Positions 1 to 20,289 of a DNA stretch of 20,289 bases are shown piece after piece. Origin of the DNA: a virus. Made by a program: the position numbers and the translations under genes. The DNA is taken from positions 1 through 20,289 of the IMG/VR virus record IMGVR_UViG_3300028276_000002, one strand, 5' to 3'. The notes beneath the pieces were generated by a model. The model saw only the letters and a list, made by a program, of their open reading frames with translations, made no database searches and had not been told where the DNA came from. Within the stretch, counting starts at the first letter, position 1. The number at the start of each line of letters is the position of its first letter.

Positions 1-232
1 AATAAGAGGGGTGCGGCTTTGGCCGGGGGGTGTGTTTTCTGCTTTGCATTCCCAAGCAGGGGCTTGGGAACGAGATGGTGTGAGGGCTTGGGAACGAGAT
101 GGTGTGAGGGCTTGGGAACGAGATGGTGTGAGGGCTTGGGAACGAGGATGTTTTTACTTGTTCCCAAGTTGAACTTGGGAACGAGATGGTAAATGTCGCT
201 TTTCGCTTCACGCTTTTCGCTCCTCGTTCTCT
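1..232. repeat. Left-end intergenic repeat block
   Basis: No gene is visible. It holds a partial CCCCTCT twin-hairpin unit (1-38); a TTCCCAAG palindrome (48-74) running into a 24-base tandem repeat (60-83, 84-107, 108-131 and a partial fourth at 132-146); a perfect palindrome GTTCCCAAGTT/AACTTGGGAAC (160-182); and a TCGCTTTTCGC-type unit (195-232) next to the tip gene stop. Confidence 0.85.
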
Positions 233-6174: not shown

Positions 6175-6190
6175 AATAATCCTTATCATT

Positions 6191-6394
6191 CCCCTCTAAT
6201 AAGAGGGGTACGGCTTCAGCCGTGGGGTGTGTTTTATCTTCTTCATACTTCGACCGGCTCAGCATGACATTATTATTTTTCTTCATTACAACATTCTCTT
6301 TCTTTTTCGTGTCTTTTCGCCTGCCCCGTAAGGAGGAACGACTGTATCGGGGTGCTTTTCGTGGCAAAAATTCTGGGTATTTTTCGTGGTTGCA
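6191..6394. repeat. Intergenic repeat block upstream of the tape measure gene
   Basis: In order: twin-hairpin CCCCTCT unit (6191-6234), GACCGGCTCAGCATGACATT unit (6252-6274) and a TTTCGTG composite (6303-6394) with the 40-base core shared with 10278-10317. Open frames across it are repeat-derived. Confidence 0.85.
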
Positions 6395-7032: not shown

Positions 7033-7058
7033 TTATTTCACCTGCTTTCATTACTATT

Positions 7059-7246
7059 CCCCTCTATCAAGAGGGGTGCGGCTTCAGCCGTGGGGTGTGT
7101 TATCTGCTCTTTATGCTTAGACCGGCTCAGCATGACATTATTTCCAGACATTCCCAAGCAGGGGCTTGGGAACGAGATGACGTGAGGGCTTGGGAATGAG
7201 GTAATTTCCATTTCTTCTCTGCGAGCTTTGCGTGGAATCTTTTCCG
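7059..7246. repeat. Intergenic repeat block: twin-hairpin, GACCGGCTCAG, palindrome, TTTGCGTG units
   Basis: In order: CCCCTCT twin-hairpin (7059-7101), GACCGGCTCAGCATGACATT (from 7120, also at 6252), a TTCCCAAG palindrome with a partial second unit (7149-7200) and a CTCTGCGAGCTTTGCGTG unit (7211-7246). Four repeat families lie end to end with no gene between. Confidence 0.85.
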
Positions 7247-8138: not shown

Positions 8139-8238
8139 CTCGCAGAGGACGCTAAGGAGATTAATATAATTTTTAATATTTCTTTCTCTGCGTTCTTTGC
8201 GTTTCCTTCTCTGCGATCTTTGCGTGAAATCTTTCCAC
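8139..8238. repeat. CTCTGCG/TTTGCGTG dispersed repeat
   Basis: CGCAGAGGACGCTAAGGAGA at the left and CTCTGCGTTCTTTGCGTTTC at the right bracket an A+T-rich centre. The two ends are imperfect reverse complements, so the unit can fold back. It fills the gap between the two tube-like genes. Confidence 0.8.
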
Positions 8239-9002: not shown

Positions 9003-9062
9003 TTTTATCTCCTAAATTTTATTTTTAATAATTAACATCTCGTTACTAAGTTTTGCAACCCT

Positions 9063-9202
9063 CTCGTTCCCAAGCCCCTGCTTGGGAATGTTCCCGACAA
9101 TTAACGAAACACCTCCAGAGTTCCCAAGCAGGGGCTTGGGAACAAGAATACGGGATTGTGTATTCATTTCCGTTTCGTGTTTTTCGTGCATTTCGTGGTT
9201 GC
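9063..9202. repeat. Intergenic repeat block: two palindromes and a TTTCGTG element
   Basis: TTCCCAAG...CTTGGGAA palindromes lie at 9063-9090 and 9121-9146, followed by TTTCGTGTTTTTCGTGCATT plus TCGTGG at 9171-9202. A half-copy of the TTACTAAG variant lies at 9039-9054. Together they fill the whole gap between the terminator and first tube gene. Confidence 0.85.
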
Positions 9203-10270: not shown

Positions 10271-10346
10271 GGTGTTCTTTCGCCTGCCCCGTAAGGAGGA
10301 ACGACTGTATCGGGGTGTGCATTTCGTGGCTAAATTCTGGTTGCAT
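10271..10346. repeat. Composite TTTCGTG element with 40-base core
   Basis: A 40-base core at 10278-10317 (TTTCGCCTGCCCCGTAAGGA...TCGGGGTG) is identical to 6315-6354. Short TTTCGTGG arms follow. CCCCG and CGGGG inside the core can pair. It fills most of the gap between two connector genes. Confidence 0.85.
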
Positions 10347-11613: not shown

Positions 11614-12552
11614 TTATGCTACCACATCAATAATCAGATAACCATAGCTTGTGTCGATGTTCTTCACACCCCAGATCTGAGTCTCTTCAATATCCAGAGT
11701 TTTCTTGTTTGCATATTTACGAACAATAGGATATCCCTTCACATTGAATCGGACAGTATGAACAGTAACGCCCTTTGCATTCTCGCCCTGAGTAGGAAGA
11801 TAAATAAGAGCTGCATTGTCACCCCACAGGTCTGTGAATACGCCTGCATCGGTGGAATAGATCGATTTTCCAACAACAATATTGGGAATTCCGGTTATCT
11901 CTTTTGCATCTTCAATAGACACAAAATTGTTTTTACTGTTCTTGATCTTTGCCAGCACGGAAGGATGATTACGGAAAGCATCCCATGCGAGGTATCCCAT
12001 TACTAATGTGTTGGGTTCCACTCCCATGTCTGCACGTGCAGCTTTGATGCCTGTAATAATATCACCAAGAGGATCGGAAGTTGCTTTGACTGACCACTGG
12101 TCATTGCCTGTCAAAGTAGCTTTGTTGCCGATGGCATAGTATGTGCCGGAAAAGAGAATGTCTGCAACTGCTTTTTCCTTTGCAACTGCCTGTGCCAGAG
12201 ATACTGTCTGCTGTGCATTCTGCTCAAGATTGATGACATCAAAATTCGTGCCGTAACGCTGTGCCCTTTTGATCTCTTCATAATCGAGAGGATGTTCGAG
12301 TGCTCTTTCATAGCACGCATAAGTATCGCTTTCTCTTTTGGTGAATATCTTTCGTGCCTCTGCACCATACGCACGCTTTGCATCATAGATGAGGAATCCT
12401 TCTTTGCCAAGTTTGAAGAATGTCCCTGTCTCAGTAAGAACCGGAATTGACGGTACTACAAGGTCAGCGATGAATTTTGGGTTTTTATACCCGATTGCAA
12501 GTTTCGTGAGGACCGGATCTACCGATCCTGTAAGTTCTGCTATTCTTCCCAT
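11614..12552 (-). CDS. Major capsid protein
   Basis: A 312-residue protein located where the coat protein lies in Mu-like clusters, after protease and cement genes. The N-terminal part (DPVLTKLAIGYKNPKFIADL, then VPSIPVLTETGTFFKLG) and the AYGAEARKI segment resemble a group of phage coat proteins that begin with a short arm followed by an extended loop. The middle (ALEHPLDYEEIKRAQRYG) would be the spine helix. The rest is mixed alpha/beta, including VEPNTLVMGYLAWDAFRNHP, ending in a strand (YGYLIIDVVA). A HK97-type fold is inferred from length and context and is not proven by a motif. GGGAGGT precedes the ATG. Confidence 0.82.
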   Translation of the reverse strand: MGRIAELTGSVDPVLTKLAIGYKNPKFIADLVVPSIPVLTETGTFFKLGKEGFLIYDAKRAYGAEARKIFTKRESDTYACYERALEHPLDYEEIKRAQRYGTNFDVINLEQNAQQTVSLAQAVAKEKAVADILFSGTYYAIGNKATLTGNDQWSVKATSDPLGDIITGIKAARADMGVEPNTLVMGYLAWDAFRNHPSVLAKIKNSKNNFVSIEDAKEITGIPNIVVGKSIYSTDAGVFTDLWGDNAALIYLPTQGENAKGVTVHTVRFNVKGYPIVRKYANKKTLDIEETQIWGVKNIDTSYGYLIIDVVA

Positions 12553-14191: not shown

Positions 14192-14210
14192 ATTTTACCT
14201 CACTTCATTG

Positions 14211-14238
14211 CATTCCCAATCAGGGGCTTGGGAACGAG
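14211..14238. repeat. Palindromic TTCCCAA...TTGGGAACGAG repeat
   Basis: CATTCCCAATCAGGGGCTTG followed by GGAACGAG. It fills the gap between the protease gene and the micro-protein. Related copies lie at 48-74, 1014-1043, 2853-2878, 2897-2924, 7149-7200, 9063-9090 and 9121-9146. Confidence 0.85.
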
Positions 14239-14271
14239 AGAGTTTTATTTTTAATTTTATATTTTCCATTT

Positions 14272-14471: not shown

Positions 14472-16685
14472 TCACATCCTGCTCATTACAAACCCCAACT
14501 CTGTCATTTCCGGCACAGTCATGGTTTCCGCTGCTTCTCTCGATCTGTGTAATACGATTCTCGTGCACCTGCAGCCATAATCAAACGGCTCTTTCAGCAC
14601 ACGCCAGATCGGATCATTTATTTTTCTCGTGAATTTATGAAATTTTTTATGAGATGGACGCACCCGAGTATCATTCATGGTCACTACCATACGGTACGGA
14701 AATTCTGAGGGATCTGCATCCTTATAGATCTCCTCACGTCCATTTGCATAATATGTCGCCAGGTTTGTTTGAGCTACAGTTGCCAAATGGGAAGGACTCA
14801 GCTCGGTCAATCCCCAGCTTGCAAGATGTTCTTGTATGGCTGCCTTAACCGCTGCGAATCCATCACCGCTTGCACCTGCAATAATATTGTATAATCTATC
14901 CCCTACCTGCACCGCCTGATCATAAGCTATCACCCCGATCCTGCCTGCAAGCTGCTCTTCCAATTTCTTCAAGCCAGCTTCCGTAATGATCCCAGCACCA
15001 ATAAAATACAATATCCACTCATCATAAGACTTCTTTTCATCTTCATTTTCCACAAAATCTCTGCGTTCTTTGCGTTCTTCCTCTGCGTTCTCAGCGTGAA
15101 ATCTTTCTGGTCCACGCTTCTCGCTCCACGCTACACGCTCCCCGACCATCTGCTGCCCTGCATGATCCTTGCCCTGCAAGTAGCTCAAAACGAGTAATTC
15201 TTTGACCTCTGGGGTTAAAACTTTTGTGATATATTTTTCAATATTCTCTTTCTGGAATTTCTTTTGTTTGGAAATATATGTCGCTACGCTCTGGAAATCC
15301 TCTGCGAATTTCTGAGTATAGATGTCGCTGATAATATCATTATCTCTCCAGAATCGCTCATTCTGCTCGATAATATCATCAATATTATTTTCTGCAAACT
15401 CCTGGTATCCTGTAACTTTATTATCCTCACCTTTTGGCGTGATCTCCTCGCTCTTCGCTCTTCGCTCCTCGCTCTTCAGTGTTTCCTCATTACCTTCCGG
15501 CACATCGATCCCAATTGCTTCATAGATAAACCTTGCTGGCACTTTCAAACCGGCATCCACCAAATTAGCAATATTCTGTGCAATCGTGATGAGCATACTC
15601 ATATTAAAACTGTTCCACTGGAAAACAGGATAATAATCTGTATCGTAATTCATATCAACTAAATTACGTATAAGCTGATGATTAAGAGCAGCAGCGCTCA
15701 CACATACATCAAAAAGTGTATAATTATTCAGCACTCCGGCATGAACGCTCGCCTGTGCATAGGTTCCTGTTCCTTTGACGCTTTCATTCGTGCTCAGGGT
15801 TTGACCCAGTACTATCATTGCTATTTCGGAATTACACCTTTTGATGAATCCGTCATAAGACGCATCTCCGGCACGTGCTGCTTCAAGAAGTTTTATTACT
15901 ATATTTTTGGGAACCAAAGCACCCGAATCTTTTACAAATGAATCCAGAAGAAGTTGTGCTTTAGCTATCGTATCATCGTCTGCATTGTCCGGAACTTCTA
16001 CTGTACTGAAAGGCATCCCAAATCGCTCTTGAAAAATAGCCCAGAACTTTGCGCCATTTTTTTTAAGCCATACCCAAAATGCAAGTAGAGAAGCAGCGCT
16101 CTCACCATACGGATTCTCATCATTCCTGCCACTTATAAAATGTATGAATTTATTTAGATCGAGTACTTTGTTGGAGTCATAGGGATCGACCACTGTTGGC
16201 TGATAATATCCAAATCTGTCAAACTTGAATGAGAATTGCTTTGCCGGTTTGAATCGTATGTTTTTCAAACCAATCTTATTTCGATATTTACCTTTGATCA
16301 GTAATTCATAATTGATCTCGGAAAGCGAAAATCCTTTGGAAATACTATCGAACATTGCAATAACGTCTGTTTCAAATGTAGGTATCCGCTCAATATTATA
16401 TCGCACGAATTCACAAATTTCCAGATCCCTTGCCCTAACAGCAGACTTGCCCTTCACCATGCTCACATGAGGTATTATTTTAAATCCCTTTGAAACAACG
16501 GACTGGATGCGTGTGTTCAGGTAGGACCTATAAGCAGTATCTCTCTCAATATCCTCGATGTAATCCATGCCCTTGAGCTGGATCACCTTATCGGGATTTT
16601 CAGAGTTGGAATGCCCGTGCTTATATCGGAACTCCAATTGAGCTTCGACCTGTTCGCCCATACTGCTATTTGAAAGATAGTTCAT
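14472..16685 (-). CDS. Portal protein (DUF935, Mu gp29-like) fused to Mu gpF-like head morphogenesis domain
   Basis: A 737-residue protein. Residues 1 to about 390 match the Mu gp29/DUF935 portal: DSISKGFSLSEINYELL, the conserved ENPYGESAA segment, FWAIFQERFGMPF and VLGQTLSTNE (about 290). The portal forms the DNA entry ring of the head. The C-terminal 110 residues (RVRPSHKKFH near 675, then PFDYGCRCTRIVL) are the gpF/minor head protein signature, normally a separate gene (gp30) that follows gp29. The two are fused here. Two low-complexity stretches, at about 402-414 (KSEERRAKSEE) and 514-543 (HAENAEEERKERR), are translated copies of dispersed DNA repeats and lie in the linker between the domains. 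AGGG lies eight bases before the ATG. Confidence 0.92.
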   Translation of the reverse strand: MNYLSNSSMGEQVEAQLEFRYKHGHSNSENPDKVIQLKGMDYIEDIERDTAYRSYLNTRIQSVVSKGFKIIPHVSMVKGKSAVRARDLEICEFVRYNIERIPTFETDVIAMFDSISKGFSLSEINYELLIKGKYRNKIGLKNIRFKPAKQFSFKFDRFGYYQPTVVDPYDSNKVLDLNKFIHFISGRNDENPYGESAASLLAFWVWLKKNGAKFWAIFQERFGMPFSTVEVPDNADDDTIAKAQLLLDSFVKDSGALVPKNIVIKLLEAARAGDASYDGFIKRCNSEIAMIVLGQTLSTNESVKGTGTYAQASVHAGVLNNYTLFDVCVSAAALNHQLIRNLVDMNYDTDYYPVFQWNSFNMSMLITIAQNIANLVDAGLKVPARFIYEAIGIDVPEGNEETLKSEERRAKSEEITPKGEDNKVTGYQEFAENNIDDIIEQNERFWRDNDIISDIYTQKFAEDFQSVATYISKQKKFQKENIEKYITKVLTPEVKELLVLSYLQGKDHAGQQMVGERVAWSEKRGPERFHAENAEEERKERRDFVENEDEKKSYDEWILYFIGAGIITEAGLKKLEEQLAGRIGVIAYDQAVQVGDRLYNIIAGASGDGFAAVKAAIQEHLASWGLTELSPSHLATVAQTNLATYYANGREEIYKDADPSEFPYRMVVTMNDTRVRPSHKKFHKFTRKINDPIWRVLKEPFDYGCRCTRIVLHRSREAAETMTVPEMTELGFVMSRM
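15058..15145. repeat. In-frame CTCTGCGTTCTTTGCG and CGCTCCACGC repeats inside the portal gene
   Basis: Bases 15058-15110 are a copy of the CTCTGCG/TTTGCGTG family seen at 3021-3068, 7211-7246 and 8139-8238. Bases 15113-15145 belong to the TCGC-type family. Together they encode a charged, Glu/Arg-rich stretch of the portal linker. Confidence 0.8.
15444..15480. repeat. In-frame TCGCTCTTCGC repeat inside the portal gene
   Basis: A run of CTCTTCGCTCTTCGCTCCTC that encodes KSEERRAKSEE. Related stretches lie at 195-232 outside genes and at 15113-15145 inside the same gene. The reading frame is kept. Confidence 0.8.
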
Positions 16686-16716
16686 CCTATTTTCCCTTTT
16701 TTATTTCCATGCAAAT

Positions 16717-16760
16717 CCCCTCTAATAAGAGGGGTGTGGCTTTAGCCACGGGGTGTGTTT
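16717..16760. repeat. Twin-hairpin intergenic repeat (CCCCTCT type)
   Basis: CCCCTCTAATAAGAGGGG is followed by TGTGGCTTTAGCCACGGGG, giving two neighbouring palindromes. The same unit occurs at 1-38, 6191-6234 and 7059-7101. The second stem carries compensatory changes here (GTGGC/GCCAC against CGGC/GCCG elsewhere), which supports selection on, or recent function of, the paired form. Confidence 0.85.
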
Positions 16761-16778
16761 TGAATCTCATTTTCTTCT

Positions 16779-17201
16779 TCATTTGTTTGTTATTTCCTTA
16801 AATATCTTTTCACCTGAGCGTCCTACAATATACCCACCCATTCCAACTGTGATCGCTGTCCATATATGGGTAGGGAGATCGAGAACCACACTCCAATTGA
16901 ATATTGCCTGTAAATATGGTGCCAAAATATAATTGTTTGCGATGATCGACATGAATGTCACCATAAGCATCGGTCTCCAGTTACGTTGTAACCAGGATTC
17001 ACCACGTGCCTCAGCCCTAACGATTGAGGACTGTGCCTCGATCAGCTTTGTCTCATACTTCATCAAAACTTCGTATGTATTCAGCTCGATCCTTTTCAGC
17101 TCATTTTTCAAAGAAAGCTTTTCCTCTTCGGAAGTAGTAAGCCCATCGATGAGATTTGTAACCGGTGAAATGATTTTTCCAATTGTATCTAATATGCTCA
17201 T
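16779..17201 (-). CDS. Holin of the GTA/3TM type
   Basis: A 140-residue protein with an N-terminal helical region (1-65), then RGESWLQRNWRPML at 66-79 and membrane segments at about 77-100 and 111-128, ending in GGYIVGRSGEKI. The W-x-x-x-N-W-R-P-x-L entry into a helix and the closing GYxxGRSxEK match the holin_3TM family (PF11351) of gene transfer agents and phages. These proteins open the inner membrane at lysis. AGGAG lies nine bases before the ATG. No endolysin is visible in the window; it may lie beyond the right edge or be encoded elsewhere. Confidence 0.85.
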   Translation of the reverse strand: MSILDTIGKIISPVTNLIDGLTTSEEEKLSLKNELKRIELNTYEVLMKYETKLIEAQSSIVRAEARGESWLQRNWRPMLMVTFMSIIANNYILAPYLQAIFNWSVVLDLPTHIWTAITVGMGGYIVGRSGEKIFKEITNK

Positions 17202-17224
17202 GTTAATCTCCTATGAAAACACAT

Positions 17225-17446
17225 CTAAATTCCAGACCTGAGCGCCCAGCCGATTATGCTGAGAGCTATTACACCAATCGATGTCAGAAGCCACCAAATT
17301 AATTTTTTATTTGACTCGATGTCTTTTACGTTTTGCTTAGTATCTTTAACAACCGCATCAACAACTTTTTCTAAATCTACGATCTTATCATAGATCATTT
17401 TATTAGTGATCCGAACAAAAGTTTTACAGCCGTTTTCGTCAGACAT
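17225..17446 (-). CDS. XhlA-like single-TM phage protein, putative holin partner
   Basis: A 73-residue protein made of an amphipathic helix (about 15-48, heptad-like, ending in charged residues) and one C-terminal membrane segment at about 49-68 (LIWWLLTSIGVIALSIIGWA). This plan matches haemolysin XhlA-type proteins, which sit next to holins in many prophages and help membrane disruption. GGGGAG precedes the ATG by five bases. The gene starts nine bases after the preceding stop and is followed after 23 bases by the 3TM holin, supporting a lysis cassette. The XhlA assignment rests on architecture, as the sequence itself is too short to be diagnostic. Confidence 0.7.
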   Translation of the reverse strand: MSDENGCKTFVRITNKMIYDKIVDLEKVVDAVVKDTKQNVKDIESNKKLIWWLLTSIGVIALSIIGWALRSGI

Positions 17447-17455
17447 TTTGCTCCC

Positions 17456-17899
17456 CTATAAATTCATTGTTCGTACTGTAATTGCAAAAATGATAAATCC
17501 GAACAGCCCGATAAATATCATCGTGCTTGCAGCAGGATACCTTATTTTTATGATCTTCCCAAATATAGGGATCCTATAATATCCATCTTTCCTGTGCTGC
17601 CAGTCGCCATCATATTTGATGTGCCTGAATTTCAGTTCATAAATACATATCCCGCTGAGTTCTGCACCGAGCCATATCAACAAACCCATCCAGCCCCAGA
17701 CAACTACAGCCATAACAGCCACCAAAATCCGGTGTCCCATATTCTCTACCAGCTCCCGGAACTGGTGATACTTTGCAGAAAACTCATGAGTATGAGGTTT
17801 TGAGATTTTCCACAGCATCGCCTCTGTTGTACCCTCGCCATAATAATAATACCAGCGAAGCAATAAATAAATGAACGGAAGTATCAATAAAACAAACAT
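17456..17899 (-). CDS. Three-helix integral membrane protein of the lysis region
   Basis: A 147-residue protein with three hydrophobic segments at about 2-17, 58-79 and 123-142. They are joined by a charged, Trp- and Tyr-rich loop (80-120, with HRKDGYYRIPIFGKIIKIRY). No catalytic motif is visible. It lies just upstream of two short membrane proteins that look like lysis genes, so a role in membrane permeabilisation or its control is possible but not shown. The start has only a weak ribosome site (GAGATGTC), provided by the palindrome directly upstream. No better start lies inside the first helix. Confidence 0.7.
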   Translation of the reverse strand: MFVLLILPFIYLLLRWYYYYGEGTTEAMLWKISKPHTHEFSAKYHQFRELVENMGHRILVAVMAVVVWGWMGLLIWLGAELSGICIYELKFRHIKYDGDWQHRKDGYYRIPIFGKIIKIRYPAASTMIFIGLFGFIIFAITVRTMNL

Positions 17900-17909
17900 A
17901 AGACATCTC

Positions 17910-17933
17910 GTTACTAAGCCCCAGCTTAGTAAC
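17910..17933. repeat. Perfect palindrome with 10-bp arms and a 4-base loop
   Basis: GTTACTAAGC and GCTTAGTAAC flank CCCA. It is a sequence variant of the TTCCCAAG...CTTGGGAA palindromes found elsewhere in the window. It sits between two genes, and its trailing GAGATG supplies what little Shine-Dalgarno sequence the next gene (start 17899) has. Confidence 0.85.
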
Positions 17934-17934
17934 G

Positions 17935-18429
17935 CTACAGCCCTACTTTGTTCCCAATTTGCACTTGGGAATGTACCGTGATCCTGCTCATGATCTTATT
18001 TCTTTTCGCAGGTTTCAACGCAGTGCTATAGCTCGGATCAACCAGCTCGACATCCAGCGCTGCTGCGATCTCATCCAGGTCGGGAACACTCTTGGTTTTC
18101 AATACATCTTCAGTATAATCACCACAAACTGCATGTGCCACGATTTTGGCTTTCTCGCAAAGTGCAAGATAATCGGAGTGCTCTTTGTCGGACTTTTTGT
18201 TCAGCTTGTGAGACTTATCTTTGCAAAGCGCTACCTCTGCATCCAAGCTATATTCAGAATGAATGATCGCCGATACAACAGCATCATAGCCGGCTTTTTT
18301 GTTTACATTCACATGCCTGTAATTGTATGAAAGCTCATCATCTTTCTGAACTTTCTCAATATCAAATATCACCAATCCGCCCTGTATAGTATCGTACAGT
18401 GGCAGAATGTGTTTGCTATTTCCTTTCAT
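17935..18429 (-). CDS. Unrecognised phage-associated protein with repeat-derived C-terminus
   Basis: A 164-residue soluble protein that I cannot place. AAGGAG lies nine bases before the ATG. The middle part (about 48-110) is predicted helical and charged, with AGYDAVVSAIIHSEYSLDAE followed by a Lys-rich segment. Similar dYDAivsAiI patterns occur in small proteins near tail or fibre genes, but I recall no defined role. The last dozen codons (VHSQVQIGNKVGL) come from a palindromic intergenic repeat at 17950-17973, so the original C-terminus was probably replaced or extended by repeat insertion. It lies nine bases after the DGR accessory gene and is likely in the same operon. Confidence 0.7.
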   Translation of the reverse strand: MKGNSKHILPLYDTIQGGLVIFDIEKVQKDDELSYNYRHVNVNKKAGYDAVVSAIIHSEYSLDAEVALCKDKSHKLNKKSDKEHSDYLALCEKAKIVAHAVCGDYTEDVLKTKSVPDLDEIAAALDVELVDPSYSTALKPAKRNKIMSRITVHSQVQIGNKVGL

Positions 18430-18438
18430 ATAAACTCC

Positions 18439-18735
18439 TTATGTTAAAGAATAATATCTGTTAATTTTTCTTATTGTTGCTAAAAAGGGAATCTCATTGC
18501 CATACTTCTCCAATTGGTCTATCAGAACATCAGATCCTGTGAAAACTACATTTTTCTTATCTTTATACTCAATCTGCAATGTAAGATATTTCCCGTTACT
18601 ATTTTTGCTATAACGGCTGTCCTTAATACGAAATCCAATAATCAAAATCTCTTCGTTAAGAATGTCGTCAAGCCGAATCTTATCGCCGTCTAAAATGTTT
18701 TCTTTTGAAATATCAGAAAATTTTTTCATTTTCAT
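18439..18735 (-). CDS. Small protein coupled to the DGR reverse transcriptase, possible DGR accessory
   Basis: A 98-residue protein whose ATG overlaps the reverse transcriptase stop by four bases, so the two are surely co-translated. It is not the four-helix Avd protein: the sequence alternates short strand-like stretches (EEILIIGFRI, YLTLQIEY, NVVFTGSDVL, IPFLATIRKI), as expected of a small beta-barrel such as an OB fold. It is lysine-rich. No catalytic motif is visible. A nucleic-acid-binding helper for cDNA synthesis or homing would fit the coupling and the fold guess, but that is inference. I do not recognise a named family with certainty. Confidence 0.8.
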   Translation of the reverse strand: MKMKKFSDISKENILDGDKIRLDDILNEEILIIGFRIKDSRYSKNSNGKYLTLQIEYKDKKNVVFTGSDVLIDQLEKYGNEIPFLATIRKINRYYSLT

Positions 18736-19790
18736 ACTATGCCCTGTAGCGGATTATTAATATTAGAATCCTTGCATTTGGTTTTTATGATCCAAAAAAT
18801 GTCTTTGCCGATAAGTGATCTCAATAGGTTTTTGCAGTTCGCATATTTGATCCAGCCAATATAGCTCATAACCATGCTAACTGCCTGAATGGTGTTTATG
18901 TATTCCCAATTCCTTATTAAATTTTTTATTTTCTGCTTAAAGGATGTTGCTACAGATCTCCTCAAAAGAACATAATTATGATAAAAACGATAGCCCAAAA
19001 AATCTATTCCTCTATCAGCAACGGGGAAAACCTGCCAGTTGTTTTTTATTTGTAACTGCCTGCTTTCACTTAAATATTCCTCAGATTGTTTTCTTATCTC
19101 ATGTAGGAACTTCTTGTCTTTATGTAGAATGACAATATCATCACAATATCTGAAATAATACTTGATCCCCATTTCCTCTTTTGCCCAATGATCATATTCA
19201 GAAAGATATAGATTACCAAAGTATTGGCTTAAATAATTTCCAATTGGTACGCCTTGAACAGAATCAATGATCTCATCAAGAAGATATAATACATCCGAAT
19301 CTTTAATTCTTTTACGAATTACGGATTTTAATATCCCGTTATTAATGGATGGATAATACTGTTTTATATCAAACTTTAAACAATACAGAGTGTTCTCTTT
19401 GTCAAAAAGGGCTTTCTTAATTCTGTTTACCCCATCATGAATACCTCTCCCTTTGATCGAAGAGTAGGTGTCTCGAATAAGTGTCTTATACCATATTGGT
19501 CTAAGTATCTGCATTATGGCATGATGTACGATCCTATCTGGGAAATATGGGAGTTTATATATTTCTCGGACTTTCCCACAATTGGTTTTCTTTGTCATTT
19601 TTACATAATTAGATGTTTTATATATCTTCTCCTTGAGCATATTCTGTATTTTTTTTAGATAGAATTCCTGATTCGAGTTGATCATTCTCACTTCTTTATA
19701 ATGCTTCTTTCCTCGCTGTGCATTCAAGTGCGCGAGTTGGATGTTTTCCATCGCCCATATTTTTTCGTAGAGATATCCAAAGCGTTTCAT
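18732..19790 (-). CDS. DGR reverse transcriptase
   Basis: A reverse transcriptase of 352 residues that copies the TR RNA with errors at adenines, giving cDNA that replaces the VR. The palm motifs are visible: FDIKQYYPSI at 140-149 with the first catalytic Asp (141), GVPIGNYLSQ at 180-189, the YCDD catalytic box at 215-218 and RGIDFLGYRF at 260-269. The IGNxxSQ motif separates DGR enzymes from group II intron and retron enzymes, which carry other residues there. The N-terminal part, YEKIWAMENIQLAHLNAQRG, is also typical of DGR enzymes. No maturase or endonuclease domain follows. GGAGGTGA lies ten bases upstream of the ATG and supports this start. The stop overlaps the next ATG (ATGA), so the small downstream gene is translationally coupled. 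No avd gene is seen beside it; one could lie beyond the right edge. Confidence 0.95.
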   Translation of the reverse strand: MKRFGYLYEKIWAMENIQLAHLNAQRGKKHYKEVRMINSNQEFYLKKIQNMLKEKIYKTSNYVKMTKKTNCGKVREIYKLPYFPDRIVHHAIMQILRPIWYKTLIRDTYSSIKGRGIHDGVNRIKKALFDKENTLYCLKFDIKQYYPSINNGILKSVIRKRIKDSDVLYLLDEIIDSVQGVPIGNYLSQYFGNLYLSEYDHWAKEEMGIKYYFRYCDDIVILHKDKKFLHEIRKQSEEYLSESRQLQIKNNWQVFPVADRGIDFLGYRFYHNYVLLRRSVATSFKQKIKNLIRNWEYINTIQAVSMVMSYIGWIKYANCKNLLRSLIGKDIFWIIKTKCKDSNINNPLQGIV

Positions 19791-19881
19791 TTTGCTTATT
19801 TCACCTCCGAGTATTCGACCCCGAAAAAAACGGGACTACCAACACGAATGAGGCATTGCTTTGTGTTTTGCCAAGGGGCAT

Positions 19882-20035
19882 GGCTTTTATGTGTAAGGTT
19901 ATAATAAGCATAGGTGAGTGCCGATATTGGAATTGGCATTCGAGGAATCGTTATTCGCATTAACGTAGAACACGCCAACTTTCGCACTGTTATTCGCATT
20001 ACTGCCAACATGCACCACACGTTTACATAAAAGCC
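19882..20035 (-). ncRNA. Putative TR-containing DGR RNA closed by an 11-bp stem
   Basis: GGCTTTTATGT at 19882-19892 is the exact reverse complement of ACATAAAAGCC at 20025-20035. In a minus-strand transcript the two arms would pair and close a loop holding the whole TR (19903-20021). Known DGRs use a structured TR RNA as template and primer for the reverse transcriptase, so a closing stem is plausible. No promoter or mature ends can be read, and the RNA limits given are only those of the stem. The leader between TR and the reverse transcriptase start (19791-19902) may belong to the same transcript. Confidence 0.5.
19903..20021 (-). repeat. DGR template repeat (TR)
   Basis: This is the invariant donor copy, located between the target gene and the reverse transcriptase as in many DGRs. 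On the coding strand it is rich in AAT and AAC codons at the diversified positions; read in the VR frame it gives HVGSNANNSAKVGVFYVNAN. AAY codons are the usual DGR template design, because mutating both adenines reaches most amino acids while avoiding stops. Of 31 template adenines, 18 are changed in VR; of the 88 other bases, one is. An 11-base inverted repeat brackets the copy. Confidence 0.93.
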
Positions 20036-20053
20036 GTTCATTATCTTATATCC

Positions 20054-20289
20054 TTAAAATAAGCAAAGGCGAGCGCCGATAGTGGAAGCGGCAAGCGAGG
20101 AATCGTTAAACGCATTAACGCAGAACACGCCAACCTTCGCACCGTAAGACGCATTACCGCCACCAAGCACCACACGCCAGTCTGTAACATAGCCAGGTGC
20201 TAATACACTATATGCCTGATAATAATAATCCGTTAGCTTGGTTGTAGAACTTCCACCAACAGCAGAGGTGTACAAACCGCCCTTGTCAT
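20054..20289 (-). CDS. DGR variable target protein, C-terminal part (5' end outside window)
   Basis: This is the last 77 or so codons of a gene that enters from the right edge; its start is not in the window and the reading frame stays open to base 20289. The product is the receptor-like protein that the DGR diversifies. The visible part contains YYYQAYSVLAPGYVTDWRVV and ends GARLCLF, a layout typical of C-terminal C-type-lectin or formylglycine-enzyme-like folds in DGR targets. The variable repeat covers the last 39 codons and reaches almost to the stop (TAA, 20056-20054). Compared with the template, 13 residues differ, mostly template Asn turned into Ser, Tyr, Phe, Leu, Ala or Thr. The template lies just downstream and the reverse transcriptase follows. 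The role as a tail fibre or surface ligand is inferred, because the N-terminal part that would show the attachment site is missing. Confidence 0.85.
   Translation of the reverse strand, partial: DKGGLYTSAVGGSSTTKLTDYYYQAYSVLAPGYVTDWRVVLGGGNASYGAKVGVFCVNAFNDSSLAASTIGARLCLF
20058..20176 (-). repeat. DGR variable repeat (VR)
   Basis: This 119-base copy aligns without gaps to 19903-20021, offset by 155 bases. There are 19 mismatches. Eighteen fall where the template coding strand has A (T on the plus strand) and one does not (20163, coding-strand T to G). The VR forms the 3' end of the target gene. The G+C-rich stretch near its coding 3' end (about 20062-20085) is the likely initiation-of-mutagenic-homology site. 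That last point is inferred from the position in known DGRs. Confidence 0.93.

Follow-up and report, generated by a model that had tools for sequence, protein, structure and literature searches.

A phage-borne diversity-generating retroelement without Avd and a predicted OB-like candidate partner of its reverse transcriptase

More than 30,000 diversity-generating retroelements (DGRs) are known (PMC8144416), and an Avd-like domain co-occurs with 62% of DGR reverse transcriptases (RTs) in complete genomes (PMC8934634). The best studied DGR needs Avd; avd-less DGRs are also known, and these were described as having no accessory gene (PMC7290462). One end of a viral contig of 20,289 nt (IMG/VR record IMGVR_UViG_3300028276_000002, analysed over its whole length and called the window below) carries a DGR of the latter kind, and it raises the question of how such an element diversifies its target and with which partner its RT might work. 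The DGR is real and, taken by itself, ordinary: phage-borne DGRs that lack Avd are a known kind. With a probability of about 0.93, it reads target gene-VR-TR-spacer RNA-RT-ORF98 along the minus strand and rewrites the target by mutagenic retrohoming.

The repeats and the gene that they diversify are located as follows:
20054..20287, minus strand: 3' end of the target gene, cut by the contig end (fragment matching phrog_5302, tail protein, 3.2e-15)
20054..20176, minus strand: variable repeat (VR)
20054..20078, minus strand: IMH, the 3' end of VR
19899..20021, minus strand: template repeat (TR)
19899..19923, minus strand: IMH*, the 3' end of TR

Aligned without gaps over 123 nt, TR and VR differ at 20 positions, 19 of which are template adenines (minus strand); adenines constitute 34 of the 123 TR bases (hypergeometric p = 3.3e-12 for the bias), and the lone remaining difference is T>G. 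A previous sequence-only reading of this DNA had placed the repeats at 19903-20021 and 20058-20176, with 19 differences over 119 nt, 18 of them at template adenines. These coordinates are correct and the recount was exact, with the repeat extending to 123 nt. The 18 adenine-site changes of the 119-nt core comprise 7 to T, 7 to G and 4 to C, and the statement that all four bases occur at the changed sites holds only across alleles, not for the window VR. The 13 amino-acid changes counted from TR to VR are likewise correct within 119 nt (14 over 123 nt). A systematic scan of positions 17001-20289 for adenine-specific repeat pairs gave this pair as its sole result. Near-identical repeats differing almost solely at TR adenines are found both in the window and in another contig of the same phage, L003, in which all 22 mismatches of an ungapped 120-nt TR/VR match fall at A.

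The phage is represented by three further IMG/VR contigs: L003 (3707 bp), L026 (22,632 bp) and a contig of 42,556 bp, of which L002 and L027 are the two ends. TR is identical in every contig that covers it, while VR is distinct in each. Five VR segments, taken from the four contigs, contain 67 changes relative to TR, of which 66 lie at template adenines (27 to G, 26 to T and 13 to C); 23 of the 24 polymorphic VR sites are template adenines too (Fisher p 1e-15). Between the window and L003, substitutions affect 15 of 123 VR positions, compared with 2 of about 1516 in the flank (p 7e-16); where VR ends, 2 nt are also deleted. Over the 2183 bases preceding VR, L003 and L027 are identical except for a single base. 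The sequence-only reading had suggested mapping reads, on the expectation that an active element would vary only at the template adenines of VR, with TR invariant, and this partial version of the check, run on four contigs, gave that picture. Such varied VRs, with their changes at adenine sites, an identical TR and near-identical flanks indicate that the DGR is active now or was so recently.

Since the element is known here from assembled contigs alone, it could be asked whether it is a degenerate fossil with old VR differences and no current activity. This is highly improbable: nearly every adenine site of VR differs between alleles, while the flanks of the same genomes show no more than about 1 difference per 1000 bases, and neither RT nor TR is damaged. 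In addition, the 42.5-kb contig has both of its ends inside VR, where an assembly would be expected to break if VR is mixed; it probably did so here, and the genome map would close at this point. That every sequence of the phage is a metagenome assembly also gives some footing to the view that the TR/VR difference arose from a chimeric assembly or a mixture of strains. The same arrangement with an identical TR recurs in the window, L002 and L003, comparable TR/VR pairs are present in dozens of relatives, and we give this view almost no credence. Judged from the sequences, the process behind the TR/VR pattern would be the adenine-specific mutagenic retrohoming proposed before, which is supported by the adenine-specific differences and the natural VR alleles.

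VR ends at the stop of the target gene, and its IMH differs from IMH* at repeat positions 103, 107, 111 and 120, where the TR adenines are replaced by G, G, T and T, respectively, fixed in all three VRs covering this region. The 27 template adenines upstream of IMH make about 3e15 protein variants possible. Extension past the contig end, also suggested by the sequence-only reading, was achieved with L003, which supplied the complete target gene of 441 aa (L003:987-2312; phrog_5302, 5.7e-78). Its best PDB profile match is 5vf4, presumably a DGR variable protein, and this match is weak (E 0.004); the AlphaFold2 model has a pLDDT of 41. The C-type lectin fold is common, though not universal, among DGR targets, and from its sequence the target protein may adopt such a fold and may serve in binding, possibly of the host.

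The DGR lies beside a lysis/head module, as stated earlier, in which a holin, a Mu-type portal fused to a Mu F-like head protein, a protease and a capsid protein were found:
16779..17201, minus strand: holin (PF11351, GTA_holin_3TM, 2.5e-19; phrog_3427, 1.8e-40)
14472..16685, minus strand: Mu-type portal fused to Mu F-like head protein in one 737-aa ORF (PF06074, 1.4e-60; PF04233, 8.3e-12)
11614..12552, minus strand: major capsid protein (PF03864, 5.4e-9; phrog_1005, 1.7e-68)

The phage also encodes two tyrosine integrases, a DnaB helicase and a PAPS reductase, and this set, together with the Mu-type head genes and the holin, suggests that it is probably temperate. The PAPS reductase-domain gene (L027:8762-9490) is of a kind associated with auxiliary metabolism or DNA modification. 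Palindromic repeats of the type TTCCCAAGCAGGGGCTTGGGAACGAG occur in many copies and both orientations, mostly between phage genes (window 47-146, 161-188, 1015-1044, 2850-2925, 7148-7200, 9036-9170, 14198-14262 and 17904-17975); they look like a host REP-type family that has spread in the phage, and might identify the host. Three more repeat families (CCTCTAATAAGAGGGGTGCGGCTTCAGCC..., CGCCTGCCCCGTAAGGAGGAACGACTGTATCGGGGTG and CTCTGCGTTCTTTGCG), with copies up to 96% identical, are found at window 1-49, 6178-6274, 7046-7142 and 16704-16772; 6309-6354 and 10272-10317; and 8170-8235 and 15065-15107.

Downstream of the repeats lies the RT gene:
18732..19790, minus strand: DGR reverse transcriptase, 352 aa (PF00078, RVT_1, 1.6e-15; phrog_1423, 2.6e-111)

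DGR-type RTs are recognized by the motifs [IVL]GxxxSQ and YxDD. The IGNxxSQ and YCDD motifs reported before are present as IGNYLSQ and YCDD, and the frame, a break in which would have spoken against the element, is intact over all 352 aa. Together with the phrog_1423 match and the TR/VR pairs accompanying related RTs, these motifs assign the enzyme to the DGR type. Models of group II intron RTs and of defence RTs (DRTs) match the RT domain as well, which could suggest an RT of a group II intron, retron or DRT next to a coincidental duplication. The score of 108.7 bits against the group II intron RT/maturase model TIGR04416 is far below the cutoff of 300, and this interpretation is refuted by 77 related loci with TR/VR upstream of the RT, in which 1301 of 1335 mismatches lie at A; its probability is negligible. 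In four LoVEphage-type loci (L043, L047, L048 and L049) the DGR RT extends over three overlapping frames, with the same pattern in relatives about 65% identical, which may reflect conserved frameshifting, a split RT or another interruption.

The RT does not follow the repeats directly, as had been claimed, and a structured spacer of 108 nt separates it from TR:
19788..19885, minus strand: structured spacer RNA, Rfam RF03020 (RT-17 RNA)
19905..19909, minus strand: TR side of the TR-spacer duplex (GCTTA)
19794..19798, minus strand: spacer side of the duplex (TAAGC), immediately before the RT start codon

The spacer belongs to RF03020 with a score of 59.4 bits (gathering score 40.4, E 1.5e-10), and 6 of the 11 other loci of the RT group that were tested also score as RT-17. 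An alignment of 27 loci contains five helices (87% paired), including helix 1 (79% of cells paired), in which the TR 3' end pairs with the bases preceding the RT start. The covariation score was 0.50 versus 0.23 for shuffled and at most 0.17 for slid alignments; the structure played no part in building the alignment, but the helices were picked after viewing it, so that the slid controls carry the same bias. The Rfam entry offers only a name and a type, whereas the window ties the RT-17 family to a DGR template spacer, placed here as pairing with the TR end. The sequence-only reading had noticed neither this RNA nor the IMH/IMH* signature, the lack of avd or the conserved gene overlapping the RT.

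Compared with Bordetella phage BPP-1 (mtd-VR-avd-TR-brt), the element shares the adenine-specific TR to VR exchange, IMH/IMH*, a structured spacer 3' of TR and a tail-protein target. BPP-1 has avd, and its spacer recruits the RT-Avd complex (PMC12875486), whereas the window has no avd, an OB-like gene after the RT and a spacer matching RT-17. Searches for bAvd (PF22296) gave no match in 49 contigs of the RT group, including the 42.5-kb genome (the positive control, W04, was matched), and the HRDC accessory domain (PF00570) was found in none of 11 contigs. The gene in question is:
18439..18735, minus strand: ORF98, 98 aa, predicted OB-like accessory protein, overlapping the RT stop by 4 nt (ATGA)

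This prediction draws on its linkage to DGR RTs, its modelled fold and its homology with an RT-fused domain. ORF98 has no match in Pfam, NCBIfam, PADLOC or PDB sequence profiles, does not belong by sequence to a known SSB family (Pfam, PDB), and matches PHROG families of unknown function only weakly. Its high-confidence AlphaFold2 model (13 sequences; pLDDT 91.7) has the order b-b-b-a-b-b, in agreement with the OB topology b1-b2-b3-a-b4-b5. Against PDB folds the model gives weak matches (best E 0.07), among them OB domains of RPA, RecG, RuvBL DII and CST, and in a viral fold search its top matches are RT proteins. ORF98 is homologous to the C-terminal domain of the hankyphage and LoVEphage RTs (hhalign 96.3%, E 1.6e-9; best of 30 column shuffles, 13.8%). 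The C-terminal extensions of crAss-like RTs were considered as a further form of this domain and rejected, as the sequence comparison gave no support (hhalign 7.5%, inside the shuffle range); one crAss-like RT is among the weaker viral fold matches.

Searches with ORF98 retrieved 22 testable loci (one of which, L034, is the same element as L018), and in all 22, bacterial as well as archaeal, a DGR RT adjoins the homologue; nearly all ORF98-found loci with enough DNA contain an adenine-specific TR/VR pair. The homologues come from phages, archaeal viruses (ANMV-1, vir525) and genomes labelled Chlorobi, Deltaproteobacteria, Bacillota, Omnitrophota, Nitrospirae and Methanogenium. In the reverse direction, ORF98 is present in 51 of the 79 loci retrieved by the RT profile alone, separated from the RT by no more than about 590 nt. 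In five loci ORF98 precedes the RT, and in those where TR/VR could be located it lies between VR and TR, i.e. in the position of avd. On the RT tree its presence and absence need 12 changes and are strongly clustered, and dN/dS is about 0.04-0.08 in three close pairs. In one RT subgroup (L015, L016, L067, L073, L074, L077, L080, L081, L086 and L090) ORF98 stands 300-530 nt from the RT without overlap, and in L127 and L128 a single DGR RT has an OB-type domain on either side, the first downstream of it and the second between VR and TR.

The 28 of 79 RT-found loci without ORF98, some of them with clean adenine-only TR/VR pairs, led us to reject the gene as an obligatory part of the RT group: it is not required in all DGRs of the group. 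ORF98 may therefore aid retrohoming without being needed, or the loci without it may use a host protein. The same absences, the clean TR/VR pairs of ORF98-less RT relatives about 60% identical, and its frequent position among late phage genes would also suit a passenger phage gene with a separate role (e.g. general ssDNA binding in replication, or virion assembly) that shares the operon with a genuine DGR by chance. Such a gene would be hard to reconcile with the lack of any testable homologue away from a DGR RT, with its occurrence upstream of, downstream of and fused to the RT, with its presence in unrelated phages and archaeal viruses, and with the correlation between RT and ORF98 distances (r 0.40; highest of 500 permutations, 0.21), and we consider the passenger explanation unlikely. 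We favour instead the view that ORF98, OB-like and encoded in an element where Avd was not found, is an alternative accessory protein that works on template RNA or cDNA together with the RT; on the evidence of linkage, homology to an RT-fused domain and predicted fold, this is probable, though well short of certain.

A second family of small genes, with the pattern INFDIxEV...YxY...IIxxxY...AY, is often found directly after the RT where ORF98 is missing; in the window its member comes after ORF98:
17935..18429, minus strand: ORF164, small gene, similar by eye to the gene directly after the RT in loci without ORF98

Other members are L054:5053-5466, L078:2779-3084, L083:5022-5366 and L089:2822-3133. 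ORF164 has no Pfam or PHROG match and the family no Pfam match; one phage relative is annotated DUF4376.

Three further sets of known DGRs are close to that of the window. The DGR of crAssphage LMMB (lineage 3; PMC7290462) has the same target-VR-TR-RT order, is avd-less and has an RT of the same wider family (44% identical), but it has no ORF98 gene, and its RT bears a C-terminal extension of its own. The archaeal virus ANMV-1 (PMC4372165) and vir525 of Methanosarcinales resemble the window in having an adenine-specific TR/VR pair and an ORF98 homologue (44-47% identical) directly after the RT, while their RTs are 32-40% identical to that of the window. In the passages of PMC4372165 that were searched, the archaeal Avd candidates are small ORFs, the nanoarchaeal one having been chosen by size and charge, and the ORF98 family is not named among them there. 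Hankyphage p00 and LoVEphage (PMC6199706) share the adenine-specific TR/VR and carry the ORF98-homologous domain at the RT C-terminus, which is fused to the RT in hankyphage p00 and placed on a separate RT reading frame in LoVEphage, whereas in the window it is a separate gene; the spacer of hankyphage p00 is Rfam RT-3, not RT-17.

In the proposed mechanism, the RT would copy the TR transcript, whose spacer (RT-17 RNA) is folded and folds back onto the TR end, into cDNA, making errors at adenines. This cDNA would then take the place of VR, where the tail-protein gene has its 3' end, and IMH, unlike IMH* at four adenine sites, would mark the 3' limit of the exchange. With no Avd found, ORF98 would be the candidate partner of the RT, the template RNA or the cDNA.

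In the literature searched, no paper joined a DGR with an OB-fold or ssDNA-binding accessory, and neither the OB-like gene or domain nor its fusion to the RT was found described. According to PMC10053308, the main DGR survey (Wu et al. 2018) proposed an additional protein that has no Pfam or CDD entry; ORF98 could be this unnamed protein, and the survey may list the gene without its fold.

More broadly, a large group of Avd-less DGRs in phages, archaeal viruses and bacterial genomes may use an undescribed OB-like accessory, separate or RT-fused (as in hankyphage), which with a structured spacer RNA would keep the mutagenic cDNA or its template in place for retrohoming; we give this generalization even odds. 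If true, a conserved OB-like partner, encoded by its own gene in some lineages and as part of the RT in others, would account for some of the gap between avd-less DGRs and the Avd-dependent one studied best. It is directly testable in the culturable hankyphage and by reconstitution in E. coli, and it is a candidate part for targeted mutagenesis tools.
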